Source of the DNA: a virus | Virus record (IMG/VR): IMGVR_UViG_3300030333_003079 | Location: 1 to 21,778 of that record | Strand: one strand, 5' to 3' | DNA length: 21,778 nucleotides | Translations under genes and position numbers: made by a program | The notes under the pieces: generated by a model | Database searches by the model: none | The model's input: only the letters and a program-made list of their open reading frames with translations | Told to the model about the DNA's origin: nothing | Shown: one piece after another, positions 7,170-16,944 of the stretch | How the letters are laid out: each line of letters begins with the position of its first letter | How positions within the stretch are numbered: position 1 is the first letter of the stretch

Positions 7170-7230
7170 CACTACGTGATGAATGCCGTTCCACCATAAG
7201 GTTAATCCTTCGACCAATAGTGCCGAATGC

Positions 7231-7932
7231 ATGGTCGGGGGTCGTCAGACTAAACGGTCTTGCTCATTTTGCCAAGATGAGAACCGTGACGAACTGGAAA
7301 GACAAATCACCGCAGGTGAAGTTACGGCCCGAGAATTAGACCGTGAAAAAGGCTGGAGAGACAACACCACTCAGCGCCATATCAGCAATCATATGGGAGA
7401 GTACATCAAGGCTGCAAACCCCTCTTGCCCAGTGTGTTCATGTGATGAGCGAAGTGAACTAGAAATGCAATACTTTGAGGACGGAAGGTCCTGTGAAGAT
7501 ATTTCAAATGAGTTGGGTTGCTCAGAAGATGCAGTGTATCGCCACATGAAAGACCACTTCCAACCCATTGTCAAGAAATCAGCAACGGCTTTGGTTGCAG
7601 TCAAGGTGGGGCATGAGATTGATTTGCTCCGTGAAAACGTGCAGGGTCTGAATGGGAAGTTAACTCAATTGATGGATGAGGTCAGCATTCACGATGATGG
7701 TGCCGTTAGCGATTTAGTGCGTTTGCACAAGGAAGTTCGTGAAACTCTCAAAGACCTCGTGGCTTATCAGTCAAAGTGGGCTGAGCCTGAAGAGAAAATG
7801 GTGGCCAACACAATCAATATCCTCAAAGTGGAGATGGCAAAGGAATCTCCAGAGACATGGAAGCGAGTTAAGAGTGCGCTTCTCAACCAAGAAGATGGTG
7901 AGTTTGACCTTACAGAGGTCATAGGTGATTGA
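7231..7932 (+). CDS. Tandem zinc-finger/HTH protein, candidate small terminase subunit
   Basis: A 233-residue protein from ATG 7231; an in-frame ATG at 7183 would add 16 residues but lacks an SD and would run into the divergent gene. It holds two copies of a module. Copy one has C11-x2-C14 and H50-x3-H54; copy two has C66-x2-C69 and H105-x3-H109. All four ligands repeat at exactly 55 residues, and R19/R74, E21-L-E/E76-L-E, Q25/Q80 and R49/R104 are also shared. The segment between Cys and His pairs reads as a helix-turn-helix (GRSCEDISNELGCSEDAVYR in copy two). Residues 125-233 are helical with coiled-coil character, suitable for oligomerisation. DNA recognition by a small terminase fits the family features and the position upstream of terL, although three other genes lie in between. 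A virus regulator is the alternative. Confidence 0.72.
   Translation: MVGGRQTKRSCSFCQDENRDELERQITAGEVTARELDREKGWRDNTTQRHISNHMGEYIKAANPSCPVCSCDERSELEMQYFEDGRSCEDISNELGCSEDAVYRHMKDHFQPIVKKSATALVAVKVGHEIDLLRENVQGLNGKLTQLMDEVSIHDDGAVSDLVRLHKEVRETLKDLVAYQSKWAEPEEKMVANTINILKVEMAKESPETWKRVKSALLNQEDGEFDLTEVIGD
7923..7929 (+). promoter_or_regulatory. SD that decides the start of the 7934 gene
   Basis: AGGTGAT lies four bases before ATG 7934, directly against the TGA stop at 7930-7932. This favours ATG 7934 over the in-frame GTG at 7925, which lies inside the SD itself. Confidence 0.55.
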
Positions 7933-12366: not shown

Positions 12367-13869
12367 ATGGCCGAGGAGAACATCAATCAACTCATCGTCG
12401 ATATGGACCGTGAGATGAGTAAGAAGTCATTCAAGTACTTCTTCGTCGATATGCTTGGCTTTGATTTCTCAACCCATCACGAAGCATGGGAGAAAGGGCT
12501 ACATGAAAACCGATACTACTGCGTGAAAGCGTCACGTGACCACGGTAAGTCTGTGTTCTTCATGAGTTATGCACTGTGGATTGCAGCGTTTAATCCCGGC
12601 ACCAGCATCATGGTCTTCAGTCACAGCCTTGAGCAAACGCTTGAGCACATGCGATTCATCCGTATGCAAATTGAAGAGACTCCTGTTCTACAACACCTCA
12701 AGCCTGAGGGCGGTCGTCCGTGGAACAAGTCCTACTTCGACTTCACCAATGGCAGTCGTTTGATGGCCAAGTCGGTTGGCGGTGCTACTCGTGGATTCCA
12801 CCCTGACGTTGTGGTCTGTGACGACATTTTGTGGGGGACTTCAGCCTCAGAGTTGCAGCGTGCAGCCGATTGGTTCTATGCGGTTCTCCTTCCTGTTCTT
12901 CACCACTCATCACGCTTGATGATGGTCGGTACGCCATTCAGTTACAACGATTTGTATGCTGAGTTGGAGACCAAAGATACGTTCCAAGTTGAGACTTATC
13001 CTGCAATTCTTGCCAATGGTGAACCATTGTGGCCCAATCGTTGGCCACTTGATGCTCTCAAAACACGTGAGGCGTCTATGCCCGCGATTCAGTTTGCACG
13101 TGAGTACCTTTGCGAGCCTATCCACGACCTATCGAGTATGTTCCCCAATGACATTCTGGAACAGGCACGGGATGACACGCTTATTCTGCTGGACAAGGCA
13201 GAGATGGAGTACGACGAGGATGGAGAGACTGCTGGAATCTTTGGGCAGCATTTCGTTGGTTGGGACCCTGCAATCGCATCGGACAAAAAGGCCGACTATA
13301 CCGCCATGCTGACGTTGCGTATCCTACCTGATAGCGAGGAGAAGCAGATTGTCAATGCTTTGAATCAAAAGAATCTCAACAGCACTGCACAAAAGCGACA
13401 GATTATCCTCCTCAACAACCGATTCAAGCCTGAGATTATCGAACTTGAAGGCAACAACTTTCAGCGAATGTTCCAAACCGAGTTGGAAGACATGCGGGAC
13501 GACATTCCCGTGCGTACAGTTATGACGACTAAGCAGCGTAAGGAGAGCATGTTTATGTCACTCTTGATGGCATTTGAGCAAGGCAAGATACGCACACCTT
13601 GGGGTAATGAAGCCAGCAGAGAGTTTACGCGAACACTGGAGACCCAACTCAATCGCTTTGGCATGACCAAGCAGGGTAAGTTGGAGTCGGTCGGTGTGCA
13701 CGATGACTTGGCCATGGCACTTGCTTTGGCGAATTGGGCTACAAAGGAATTCCGTGGCAACATTGTCATGCTTGATGACGATGATATGCCGGGCTTTGAT
13801 GACTGGTTTAAGGGAGGAGAAGCACCATCTAAAGGTGGCACAAGACCAAGTGAGTGGTTTATTGCGTGA
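12367..13869 (+). CDS. terL: Terminase large subunit (packaging ATPase-nuclease)
   Basis: A 500-residue protein of normal length for TerL. The ATPase domain has Walker A ASRDHGKS (55-62), Walker B VVVCDD (148-153) with the acidic pair, and a coupling motif LMMVGTP (184-190). The RNase H-like nuclease domain shows GWDPA with D300, a second acidic residue D310, E361 in an ELEGN segment, and D446/D447 in HDDLA. These are the expected metal-binding acids in the expected order. TerL cuts concatemeric viral DNA and drives it through the portal into the prohead. The ATG lies three bases after GGGTGAT. The next gene starts 38 bases after the stop, and the portal gene follows one gene later, as usual in tailed viruses. 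No intein or frameshift is seen. This is the most secure call in the window. Confidence 0.97.
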   Translation: MAEENINQLIVDMDREMSKKSFKYFFVDMLGFDFSTHHEAWEKGLHENRYYCVKASRDHGKSVFFMSYALWIAAFNPGTSIMVFSHSLEQTLEHMRFIRMQIEETPVLQHLKPEGGRPWNKSYFDFTNGSRLMAKSVGGATRGFHPDVVVCDDILWGTSASELQRAADWFYAVLLPVLHHSSRLMMVGTPFSYNDLYAELETKDTFQVETYPAILANGEPLWPNRWPLDALKTREASMPAIQFAREYLCEPIHDLSSMFPNDILEQARDDTLILLDKAEMEYDEDGETAGIFGQHFVGWDPAIASDKKADYTAMLTLRILPDSEEKQIVNALNQKNLNSTAQKRQIILLNNRFKPEIIELEGNNFQRMFQTELEDMRDDIPVRTVMTTKQRKESMFMSLLMAFEQGKIRTPWGNEASREFTRTLETQLNRFGMTKQGKLESVGVHDDLAMALALANWATKEFRGNIVMLDDDDMPGFDDWFKGGEAPSKGGTRPSEWFIA

Positions 13870-13906: not shown

Positions 13907-15199
13907 ATGTGGGATTCGTTGGTCGTCAATTATGGCGAAACACTTCCTGAAATTTTGTCCAATCACCCACAGATAGATGTCGATATGGCTTCTAGTATAA
14001 TCAAGTCTACATTGGATGAGCCTATTCAGAAGACTGCGCCTTCAATTACGCTTCAGTTCCCACCTACAGGTGAGGGTTGGATTAAGGCTTACACAGGCAT
14101 GAATGCAACGCAGTTGGTCAAGCAACTGAAGAAGCAGCGCCGACACAACAAAGATGTCAAAGATGACATTGACCATTTGGTCAAACTCATTCGTACAATC
14201 AAGAGTGAAGAGGTCGAGGCTACGCTCAATGGTATAGGCTGGGCTACAGACCGGCACGATACACTTCGCTCGCTTGGTTTGTCTGACCGTGACCTCAAAT
14301 CACTACGGTTGTTCCACAATTCACGTAGTTCTTCACTTCTGCGAGCATGTGAAATGTGGGAGACTTCTGATATGGCACTCAAGGCACTTGATGAGTATCA
14401 GGATGTTTGGGGTGAAGCCGAGCAAAAGGCGTGGGTAAACGCAATGGAGACTCGCAAAGCCGCACGCTCTGTTTGGAGAAAGTCTCTACATCAGATTGAC
14501 AGCCTTACCAAGGACCAAAAGTCTTGGTTGGAGTTGGCAAAGGCAGAACTGGATGACAAAGGCCCCATGACTTCTCGCTCAATTACTGAAAACATGATGG
14601 GTTCAGCACCCTCAGGTGTAATCCGTAGTCTGACTCCGGCAAAGATGAGTAAGTTACTCAAAATGTATGGCGAGGAAATGGACATTATCAAAGGTACACG
14701 AAAGGGAGAATATGTTCTGCTAAAGTCCGATGGCCTTGTACTGAAGAACTCTGACGTATGGGGCTATGCGGCTGGGTTCCTTGATGCTGATGGTTCAATT
14801 TACATCACCGACCGTGATGAGCCACGTGCCTCTTTCATTGCCACGGGCAACAGAGGACGTGTGCATTGCGAGCAATTACACAAGGTATTGGACTGTGGCA
14901 TTCTTCAGTTGGACCAAAAGGTGTACAAAGACGGCCAGCGTTCACAACACCGGGTATCATTTTATTCTAAGGAGGATTTGAGAAAACTCCTCACAGGTTT
15001 GGGTCCACACCTTCGGATGAAAGAAACACAGGCAAAGGCTGTGTTGGCTTTCATTGACGAAAAGGATTCGACGAGAAAAGGACAATTGCGTAAATTGGTA
15101 CAGTATCTCAACTGGGAGGGAACACAGAAAGGTGAGGACTGCCTCCGCCAGTGGGGAGTAGACCAAGATACGGTCATGAGTTGGGCAGGTGGTCTATGA
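13907..15199 (+). CDS. wHTH-LAGLIDADG fusion protein between terL and portal
   Basis: A 430-residue protein from ATG 13907 with a strong SD (GAGGAGG). Residues 1-200 are mostly helical and unrecognised. Residues about 205-275 look like a winged helix-turn-helix (helices around 222-253, then a beta-wing ending at YVLLKSDG). Residues 284-385 match a single LAGLIDADG domain: the motif is GYAAGFLDADGSIYI (286-300) with the catalytic-type acidic residue D295, followed by basic beta strands and the typical PHLRMKETQAKAVLAFI (367-383) ending. It has one motif, so it would act as a dimer or be non-catalytic. It is not inside a recognisable intein or intron: it is an ordinary gene with its own SD, and its stop overlaps the portal start. 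Either a homing endonuclease captured into a virion gene, or a packaging-associated nuclease in the place of HNH proteins elsewhere. Confidence 0.82.
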   Translation: MWDSLVVNYGETLPEILSNHPQIDVDMASSIIKSTLDEPIQKTAPSITLQFPPTGEGWIKAYTGMNATQLVKQLKKQRRHNKDVKDDIDHLVKLIRTIKSEEVEATLNGIGWATDRHDTLRSLGLSDRDLKSLRLFHNSRSSSLLRACEMWETSDMALKALDEYQDVWGEAEQKAWVNAMETRKAARSVWRKSLHQIDSLTKDQKSWLELAKAELDDKGPMTSRSITENMMGSAPSGVIRSLTPAKMSKLLKMYGEEMDIIKGTRKGEYVLLKSDGLVLKNSDVWGYAAGFLDADGSIYITDRDEPRASFIATGNRGRVHCEQLHKVLDCGILQLDQKVYKDGQRSQHRVSFYSKEDLRKLLTGLGPHLRMKETQAKAVLAFIDEKDSTRKGQLRKLVQYLNWEGTQKGEDCLRQWGVDQDTVMSWAGGL

Positions 15200-16944
15200 T
15201 GGCAGAAGGAGAACAGGGCAGAGTTAGTCGATTTTTGAGTGCCATTGCATCTCCGTTCCGTCGCCGGTCTACACCGGCTCCTCAGATGCCTTTGTGGACA
15301 ACGGGTATTCAAGAGCCTGTACTTGTTCAAGGTGTTACACTACCAGCCCTATATGCAGTGGCCAATGAGAACTTGATTCTACGAACCGTAATCACAACTC
15401 TACAGCAGGAAATTTTCCGCCGTGGCTATTACTGGGAAAAGGCATACCACAAGAAATGCGTTGAGTGTGAAAAGGAATACCAGCATGACATTGAATCATG
15501 TGACTTGTGTGGAGGAGAAGTCAAAGACCCTGACCCTGACCAAGCCATCTATGCTCGTTGGTTTGTAGACCAACGGAACAGCATGAACCAGTCATTCATG
15601 GATGTGCTTCGTGAAATCGAGTATGATTTGAACATCACCGATGATGCATTTTTGATTCTGATTAAGGAGTATTACATTGACGAAGAGAGTGGTGAGCCTG
15701 CTTTCTATCGTGTAAAGGAAGCGATTCGTGGTGACCCTATCTTCATGCGCATTGTTGCTGACAAGCGTGGTGTACGAGGTGGTCGCTATCGTGTCTGTCC
15801 GCTTCACCGTGATGTCGTTCGCTCTTTCCATGAGGAAGAGAAAAACTGCCCTACATGCAGTCAAAAATTAGAGGATGTACATTACGTCAATACTGCAGGT
15901 TCAGGCAAAACACAGTATTTCCTTGATGGAGAAGTCTTGCATATTTCCAAGTACCAACCTTCCAAGTTGTATGGGCGTGCGCCTGTGGCCACGCTATGGC
16001 GACAAGCCATGACATTAACAGCAATGGACAATTACATGTACACAGCCTACAGTAAGAGGCGAACCCCACGTGGTATGATTTCAATTACCACAGACAACAT
16101 TGAATCCATGAAATCTTTCTGGAAGGGCGTTGATGAGAAGTTGGAGCGTGACCCTCATTACATTCCTAAGATTGGAATCGAAAGTCAGACAGGGCGCGGT
16201 GGTGTGAATTGGGTCAAGTTCATGGACACTCTGGAAGAAATGCAGTACATTACTGTCCGTGATGAAATGCGACAGCGCATTGCTTCGTTCTACGGCGTGT
16301 CCAATGTGTTCATGATGGATACAGGTAAATCTGGCGGCCTCAACAACGAAGGATTGCAAGTTCTTGTTACCAATCGTGCAGTTGAGTTTGGTCACAAAGT
16401 GTATACTGAGAACTTATTCCCACGTATGTTAGAGCAAATGGAAGTTACAGATTGGAAGTTGACACTGTATCCATCGGAAGAAGAGGACGAGGTCACTCGA
16501 CTTCGTCGAGATGAGATGGAAGTCAACATTGCACAGCGCATGGCTATGCTTGGTTATCAGGCTCAATTGCTGGAAGAAGGTACACGAGACATTCGCTTCA
16601 TTTACAAGCAGCCTGACCCCGGTATGCAGCAAGGTCCACCCGGCATGGGTGGCGGTATGGGTATGGGTATGCCAATGGGCGGAATGCAGATGGGTGGCGG
16701 TATGGGCACACCCGGTGCACTTCCGAGCCGAAATATCCCACCACAACTCGCAGGCGCCATGGGCGCTGCAGCCCGAGGACCGGGTTCACAACCCGGTGGG
16801 GAAGGCATGGGAATCCGCACACCGAGCAGCCCTGCGGCTCCTCAACGGCGTAGTGGAATGAGTGGAAGTCCAGTATCATCAGTACAGCAACGAGGTATGC
16901 AACCGGGCCCCGTTGAACAGGCATCTCGATTCAGAGGTGCTTGA
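15196..16944 (+). CDS. Portal protein with two Cys clusters
   Basis: A 582-residue protein. The start is ATG 15196 or the adjoining ATG 15199, with AGGTGG just upstream and overlap with the previous stop; a frame open from 15151 has no signal. Residues 50-475 have the portal layout: an N-terminal clip/wing region, a DITDDAFLIL-like strand set around 145-160, HISKYQPSKLYGRAPV (249-264) followed by long helices, and FYGVSNVFM in the core, patterns I associate with phage and archaeal-virus portals. Inserted are two probable zinc sites: C88/C91/C102/C105 and C201/C218/C221 with H204. The tail from about residue 474 is Met/Gly/Pro-rich and disordered. The portal forms the dodecameric DNA channel at one capsid vertex and docks TerL. 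Position after terL supports the call. Confidence 0.9.
   Translation: MMAEGEQGRVSRFLSAIASPFRRRSTPAPQMPLWTTGIQEPVLVQGVTLPALYAVANENLILRTVITTLQQEIFRRGYYWEKAYHKKCVECEKEYQHDIESCDLCGGEVKDPDPDQAIYARWFVDQRNSMNQSFMDVLREIEYDLNITDDAFLILIKEYYIDEESGEPAFYRVKEAIRGDPIFMRIVADKRGVRGGRYRVCPLHRDVVRSFHEEEKNCPTCSQKLEDVHYVNTAGSGKTQYFLDGEVLHISKYQPSKLYGRAPVATLWRQAMTLTAMDNYMYTAYSKRRTPRGMISITTDNIESMKSFWKGVDEKLERDPHYIPKIGIESQTGRGGVNWVKFMDTLEEMQYITVRDEMRQRIASFYGVSNVFMMDTGKSGGLNNEGLQVLVTNRAVEFGHKVYTENLFPRMLEQMEVTDWKLTLYPSEEEDEVTRLRRDEMEVNIAQRMAMLGYQAQLLEEGTRDIRFIYKQPDPGMQQGPPGMGGGMGMGMPMGGMQMGGGMGTPGALPSRNIPPQLAGAMGAAARGPGSQPGGEGMGIRTPSSPAAPQRRSGMSGSPVSSVQQRGMQPGPVEQASRFRGA
16635..16715 (+). repeat. Low-complexity GGTATGGGTATG-type tract in the portal tail
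   Basis: Short imperfect repeats of GGTGGCGGTATGGG and GGTATG encode the Met/Gly tail of the portal. It is internal to the gene and in frame. The antisense reading gives an artefactual His/Thr-rich open frame. Confidence 0.75.

Follow-up and report, generated by a model that had tools for sequence, protein, structure and literature searches.

The lag Gene and Its Neighbors

The window analyzed here is the whole stretch of viral DNA, 21,778 nucleotides in length. Between the genes for the large terminase (TerL) and the portal lies an intact open reading frame, running from ATG to TGA and encoding 430 amino acids, which is called lag in this report. The features are collected in Table 1. The gene for TerL ends 37 nt upstream of lag, and the portal start is an ATG at either 15196 or 15199 (ATGATG at 15196-15201), so that it overlaps the lag TGA at 15197-15199. 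Because terL and portal are complete reading frames on either side of it, lag is a free ORF, and an intein or an intron is ruled out. The sequence-only reading of this DNA had described an ordinary coupled gene, and this description holds.

TerL carries a nuclease domain of its own. A gene for a helix-turn-helix and coil protein, separate from lag, was seen in 5/5 records searched, the one containing the window included; no homology of this gene to HVTV-1 gp108 was demonstrated. The winged helix of lag could suit a small terminase, but the separate gene appears from its sequence to be the better candidate for that role. With a nuclease domain in TerL and a separate candidate small terminase, lag fills no obvious gap in the packaging machinery.

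Table 1. Positions of lag, its parts, and neighboring genes in the window
Feature	Position	Strand	Basis
Candidate small terminase, HTH then coil, gene separate from lag	7183..7932	+	HTH_20 4.5e-5
Large terminase (TerL)	12367..13869	+	Terminase_6C 5.5e-9; phrog_38 6.9e-56
lag, helical + winged-helix + LAGLIDADG protein	13907..15199	+	ORF; AlphaFold2 model, pLDDT 91
Helical N-terminal region, residues 53-199	14063..14503	+	model of N-terminal part
Winged helix, residues about 200-275	14504..14731	+	models; VIA-align Z 7-9.6, best 1ldd (9.6) and 2od5 (9.3)
LAGLIDADG domain, residues 280-416, I-CreI/I-MsoI type, one motif	14744..15154	+	profile and structure matches
LAGLIDADG motif GYAAGFLDADGSIYI, residues 286-300	14762..14806	+	sequence, alignments
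D295, metal-binding Asp, aligned with I-CreI D20	codon 14789-14791	+	alignments
K372, aligned with I-CreI K98	15020..15022	+	kept in 136/136 distinct sequences
Portal	15196..16944	+	phrog_18178 1.7e-65

Two further observations were made in the flanking genes. A scan of synonymous variation for a target site, with terL as one of the three genes scanned, found unusually low variation among 53 TerL representatives at about 12757-12804 of the window (p 0.0045 by permutation within terL). No clear pseudo-palindrome was seen there by eye, and the low variation could reflect a DNA element, the target of a nuclease, or codon preference. In the portal, a zinc-ribbon-like insert is found at 15448-15513 (DZR E 0.0067; residues 100-121 of the 15151 frame), and its two Cys pairs are invariant in an alignment that takes in haloviruses.

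The LAGLIDADG Domain and Its Active Site

The lag protein of the window, taken alone, matches Pfam LAGLIDADG_3 weakly (E 0.18) and phrog_5046 at 9.4e-11. A profile of 14 lag sequences matches I-CreI-derived chains at 6.9e-8, and one of 89 sequences matches I-CreI- and I-MsoI-derived chains at 1.2e-12. Using the model of lag as the query, Foldseek returned 45 matches with E < 0.001, these being I-MsoI, I-CvuI, I-CreI, and designed derivatives. The VIA-align superposition of the domain on I-MsoI (1m5x) gave a Z of 15.3 and an rmsd of 2.0 over 126 residues; I-MsoI and I-CvuI both align at a Z of 15, and the rmsd for the I-CreI/I-MsoI type ranges from 2.0 to 3.0. The LAGLIDADG helix and the alpha-beta-beta-alpha-beta-beta-alpha fold are both present in the model. 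A chance match is excluded by the agreement of the two profiles, phrog_5046, and the structural alignment. No meaningful family for lag was found in NCBIfam.

Among the distinct proteins, D295 is kept in 130/136, with Asn in the remaining 6, and K372 in every one. By alignment, D295 and K372 are the counterparts of D20 and K98 of I-CreI. The conservation of D295 had been singled out for checking in the sequence-only reading, and the residue proves to be conserved within a fold of the I-CreI/I-MsoI type. Since each chain has a single LAGLIDADG motif, two lag chains would be expected, by analogy with I-CreI, to pair and act on a DNA site that is pseudo-palindromic.

The entry phrog_5046 is labeled "HNH endonuclease"; it covers the LAGLIDADG part and matches 14/14 lag members scanned, and the label looks wrong. 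In BFVD, the whole lag model matched A0A516LD89, a viral protein of 533 amino acids (E 2.4e-17, 428 columns, 21% identity), and the LAGLIDADG domain also matched L7TNM9, a LAGLIDADG protein of HVTV-1.

The N-Terminal Region

The full-length AlphaFold2 model, built from the alignment of 89 sequences, has a pLDDT of 91 and shows helices at about residues 58-199, then a winged helix (about 200-275) and, from 281, the LAGLIDADG domain. Its pTM of 0.65 indicates a less certain placement of the parts relative to each other. When the N-terminal part was folded separately from the LAGLIDADG domain, the pLDDT was 94 and the pTM 0.84. The intact ORF, the profile and structure matches, and both models thus bear out the earlier description of a winged-helix and LAGLIDADG protein between terL and portal with a long helical N-terminus.

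A comparison of the winged-helix region with known domains had also been proposed. In VIA-align, residues 200-279 superpose on the WHB domain of cullin (1ldd) with an rmsd of 2.0 over 72 residues and on 2od5, a protein of an uncultured marine organism that putatively binds nucleic acid, with 3.2 over 74; domains of the Fur and MarR types gave Z values of about 7.5. Foldseek with the N-terminal model found no match below E 0.29. With Foldseek silent and the VIA-align matches broad, the winged-helix fold class is clear and no specific relative is indicated. For the helical part there was no confident match to a solved fold or to a portal partner in searches that reported mostly on the winged helix.

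A conserved N-terminal part of about 230 amino acids is always fused to the LAGLIDADG domain: all 244 family matches have both halves, and the suggested search for N-terminal homologues without LAGLIDADG yielded 0/244 N-terminal matches among the loci collected. There are 11 LAGLIDADG-only ORFs from bacterial MAG contigs, which are distant genes of the homing type.

The pairing of a winged helix with a LAGLIDADG domain raises the alternative that lag binds DNA to regulate transcription of the late or packaging genes. WhiA, a domesticated LAGLIDADG protein with a helix-turn-helix DNA-binding domain, shows that a homing enzyme can become a regulator, and the few lag proteins with Asn at position 295 would suit a pure binder. 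The retention of the catalytic Asp and Lys in nearly all of the proteins is unlike a pure binder, however, and lag resides inside a structural operon, in step with the portal. Furthermore, no WhiA family was among the Pfam matches at the limits used. We regard a WhiA-like regulator as quite improbable. WhiA is a cellular regulator, whereas lag is viral and its catalytic residues are mostly intact. The order of the domains in WhiA is reversed relative to that in lag.

Distribution and Gene Order

A scan with a single protein found 16 relatives of lag, and a profile scan contributed the best 80 of 293. The gene is upstream of portal in 96/96 of these loci, and terL was found upstream of lag in 88/96, the other 8 being without a terL match. 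Because these loci had been chosen by lag itself, the distribution was retested from the portal. With portal profiles that were first built from lag-bearing loci, lag is present in 79/80 loci (best 80 of at least 348), and the exception begins 239 nt before the portal. The portal of HVTV-1 was then used as the lead sequence, and the best 80 of at least 209 relatives comprised 8 loci already collected and 72 new ones; lag is found in 68/72 of the latter. The four without it are haloviruses, with portals 79-87% identical to that of HVTV-1. For the combined portal-selected loci from the two best-80 lists, lag is thus present in 147/152, and the five misses are the four haloviruses and the one truncated locus. 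Many of the loci are on contigs that had already contributed a locus, and the locus counts are therefore not independent. Counted by sequence, the best-scoring loci supply 145 distinct lag genes accompanied by a portal and 136 accompanied by TerL as well as portal. One copy of lag was found in each of 8/8 records searched whole.

The sequence-only reading had named a sporadic insertion, absent from most relatives, as the observation that would speak against a stable gene. The frequency among the portal-selected loci argues for the stable gene, and none of the marine loci whose sequence extends far enough upstream of the portal shows an empty site; a sporadic insertion is ruled out.

In 133/145 distinct loci the stop codon of lag and the start of the portal are -4 to +3 nt apart, under a start-choice rule that favors adjacency. 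The other spacings are -11 in 2 loci, +5 in 1, and 277-1058 nt in 9. The gap between terL and lag in the 136 distinct loci is shorter than 200 nt in 90, 200-1000 nt in 13, and longer than 1000 nt in 33. With a tight spacing on one side and variable gaps on the other, lag stays with portal more than with terL. The interval between terL and lag resembles a cargo hot spot: roughly one in three distinct loci (L058, L059, L060, L061, L062, L066, L088, L123, and others) has additional ORFs there, in stretches of about 0.5-3 kb; the inserts of the 15 loci inspected include small basic and low-complexity ORFs.

Which Viruses Carry lag

No full-length match turned up among named phage records when the P0001 lag protein, its C-terminal part, or either of two divergent relatives was used as the query. 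A family B DNA polymerase was found in 4/4 long relatives (92-109 kb), and none was found in the 54-kb record of the window, which is possibly a fragment. The polymerase fits the description of Magrovirales (PMC12999244), and the published grouping of magroviruses with Druskaviridae by portal (PMC8651126). Since no named magrovirus in the phage collection was matched, it is by inference that the lag carriers would constitute a large clade of marine tailed archaeal viruses of the magrovirus-like kind, with Poseidoniales as the putative host. One locus with the terL-lag-portal module, L098 (PAUP01000076.1), is filed under a Cytophagaceae MAG; its contig has the same length (18054) as that of L112 from IMG/VR, the two portals are 100% identical, and it is probably a mis-binned virus.

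The Same Slot in Haloviruses

Judged by portal, the closest named records are the haloviruses HVTV-1, HCTV-1, HCTV-5, and HCTV-16. The slot between terL and portal was compared in six haloviruses. An HNH protein occupies it in 3/6 (HVTV-1 gp111, HCTV-5 gp106, and an ORF of L197); in the other 3/6 (HCTV-1, HCTV-16, and L196) terL directly adjoins portal and the slot is empty. These HNH proteins of HVTV-1 and HCTV-5 share the position of lag, but they carry zinc-binding repeats, are non-homologous to it, and are sporadic. Neither the HNH protein of HVTV-1 nor any ORF near the portal in HVTV-1, vir335, or vir519 showed homology to lag. The terL and portal genes overlap in vir335 and are separated by a gap of about 200 nt in vir519. 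In HCTV-5 (L192) four annotated HNH genes surround terL, portal, and the following genes, forming a cluster of nucleases that are likely mobile.

With HNH genes in haloviruses and lag in the marine clade, the junction between terL and portal has taken nuclease genes more than once, and a nuclease is fixed there only in the marine clade. The sequence-only reading had suggested that a different nuclease fold may have taken the position of HNH proteins. This is fair with respect to the slot. The halovirus HNH gene is itself sporadic, however, so replacement of one nuclease by the other is only one possible history, and independent arrivals at a hot spot fit equally well. In the portal tree the haloviruses are placed beside all 136 marine sequences (support 0.959), whereas Druskaviridae are described in PMC8651126 as having emerged from within marine viruses. 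The history may be a gain of lag in the marine clade or a loss in the haloviruses.

Selection and Shared History

Values of dN/dS were calculated pairwise by the method of Nei and Gojobori. For 140 close pairs, the median dN/dS of lag is 0.059; TerL has 0.039 and portal 0.044. The correlations of pairwise identity are 0.89 for lag and portal, 0.82 for lag and TerL, and 0.91 for TerL and portal. By these estimates lag is under strong purifying selection and is broadly co-evolving with portal and TerL. Of 102 strong splits in the TerL+portal tree, the tree of the N-terminal part of lag recovers 74 and contradicts 16, and that of the LAGLIDADG part recovers 65 and contradicts 23. The history of lag, as read from these trees, is mostly common with that of TerL and portal, plus some recombination or error. 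We conclude that lag is very probably a resident core gene and not a passing selfish element.

The opposing explanation is that lag is a free-standing homing endonuclease of the selfish kind, fixed by a sweep and maintained because, in mixed infections, it cuts or excludes the genomes of competitors. In fold and catalytic residues lag matches homing enzymes, sporadic HNH genes occupy the same slot in haloviruses, and the agreement of the LAGLIDADG tree with that of TerL and portal is only partial. Terminase neighborhoods are also hot spots for homing genes (PMC10448857), and for this reason position alone proves little. However, the marine loci lack empty sites, the N-terminal part is always fused, and a clade without the metal-binding Asp retains the whole ORF under purifying selection, which is unexpected for a purely selfish nuclease. 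We consider this explanation unlikely, and the clade described below is the observation that it explains worst.

A Clade without the Metal-Binding Aspartate

Asn replaces D295 in six distinct sequences (L079, L080, L164, L166, L169, and L171), which have GFFDSNG in place of GFLDADG. Q375, aligned with Q101 of I-CreI, is Leu in six of 136 sequences, and the D295N sequences inspected show that change. On the TerL+portal tree the D295N sequences group together as a single clade (support 0.999) that lies inside the viruses with D295. The stem branch of this clade is 0.365 for the LAGLIDADG part versus 0.041 for TerL+portal. Relative to the nearest D295 relatives, the N-terminal part is 78% identical and the LAGLIDADG part 47-49% (four of the six checked); for comparison, in 741 D295 pairs with an N-terminal identity of 55-70%, the identity of the LAGLIDADG part has a mean of 80% and a minimum of 41%. 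Within the clade, dN/dS (13/15 pairs computable) is 0.02-0.19 for the LAGLIDADG part and 0.009-0.071 for the N-terminal part. This order is opposite to that in 116 D295 pairs, for which the medians are 0.062 and 0.106, respectively.

From the single clade, the long stem, and the dN/dS values, it is predicted that cutting was most likely lost once, with fast change of a domain that is still maintained. The change of Asp to Asn is compatible with DNA binding, since the complex of I-CreI(D20N) with DNA has been crystallized; this structure (1t9i) is among the structural matches of lag. No second copy of lag was found in the six D295N records (fragments up to 59.6 kb), and, the records being fragments, a compensating gene may lie elsewhere in these viruses. 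The loss of a key cutting residue in one lineage, with retention of the gene, suggests that lag now serves the virus. The sequence-only reading did not foresee this clade, with its fast-diverged LAGLIDADG domain in a constrained gene.

In the D295N clade, constraint on lag is strongest in the N-terminal domain, and the gene is linked tightly to portal rather than to terL. Both observations would suit a protein of capsid or neck assembly, or of the virion, in which the LAGLIDADG fold is structural or functions in DNA ejection. The active site is nevertheless conserved in the other lineages, and the helical part matches no portal partner in the searches described above, so a virion or assembly role is very unlikely in our estimation.

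Proposed Function and Relation to Known Systems

The preferred reading of lag is a domesticated homing-type nuclease, resident in the core of the head and packaging operon, that recognizes a DNA site and cuts in most lineages; we consider the chances for and against it to be evenly balanced. What was observed directly is the nuclease fold, an active site that is conserved, a fixed order of genes, co-inheritance, and purifying selection; from here we infer a packaging role. In the proposed sequence of events, a homing-type endonuclease would have become a resident gene of the operon. The protein would bind a specific site in the viral genome, and the winged helix and helical region may provide further contacts with DNA or dock onto TerL or portal. 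In most lineages lag would cut or nick at this site and thereby assist the initiation or termination of packaging, much as gp74, an HNH protein, assists TerL in HK97. In the D295N clade, recognition without cutting may suffice, or another nuclease, such as that of TerL, may make the cut. A more specific version is that lag is the site-specific recognition and cutting subunit of packaging across an entire, abundant order-level group of marine archaeal viruses, with one lineage having made it a cleavage-dead recognition subunit through an Asp-to-Asn change of the I-CreI(D20N) type. This version is tentative, and we find it possible though rather doubtful.

The I-CreI, I-MsoI, and I-CvuI homodimers share with lag the domain fold, the single motif, the metal-binding Asp, and a Lys equivalent to K98. 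These enzymes are intron-encoded and mobile. In lag, unlike in these enzymes, the LAGLIDADG domain sits behind a helical and winged-helix part and is resident in a viral structural operon. The gp74-type HNH proteins of HK97 resemble lag in being nuclease genes that adjoin terminase genes in tailed viruses. In contrast, lag has the LAGLIDADG fold, follows terL, and is coupled to portal. HK97 gp74 promotes cos cleavage (PMC9410871), and HNH packaging proteins help the cutting of genome ends (PMC9410871, PMC10448857). The discussion of HK97 in PMC10448857 allows for nucleases of the homing type, located next to terminase genes, having been co-opted to process genome ends, and points out that homing genes also accumulate in this region.

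Judged by titles and openings of abstracts, the literature on terminase and portal in viruses, archaeal ones included, on Poseidoniales viruses, and on domesticated homing endonucleases in phages contains no account of a LAGLIDADG protein as a terminase partner, and a mention in the magrovirus papers is possible. The word LAGLIDADG does not occur in PMC10160649, PMC8651126, PMC10768690, or PMC13108676, and the lag gene is unmentioned in PMC12999244. The word occurs three times in PMC10448857, and the occurrences inspected concern phage ICP1 and inteins.

If the proposal is true, a second nuclease fold would be added to the packaging modules of tailed viruses. The lag gene would then provide a case, documented in many genomes, of a selfish nuclease that became a core viral gene, and the D295N clade would be an internal control that separates recognition from cutting. 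It would also be a marker gene for magrovirus-like viruses. No account of DNA packaging in these uncultured ocean viruses was met in the literature surveyed, and lag would, if the proposal is true, offer a concrete handle on it.
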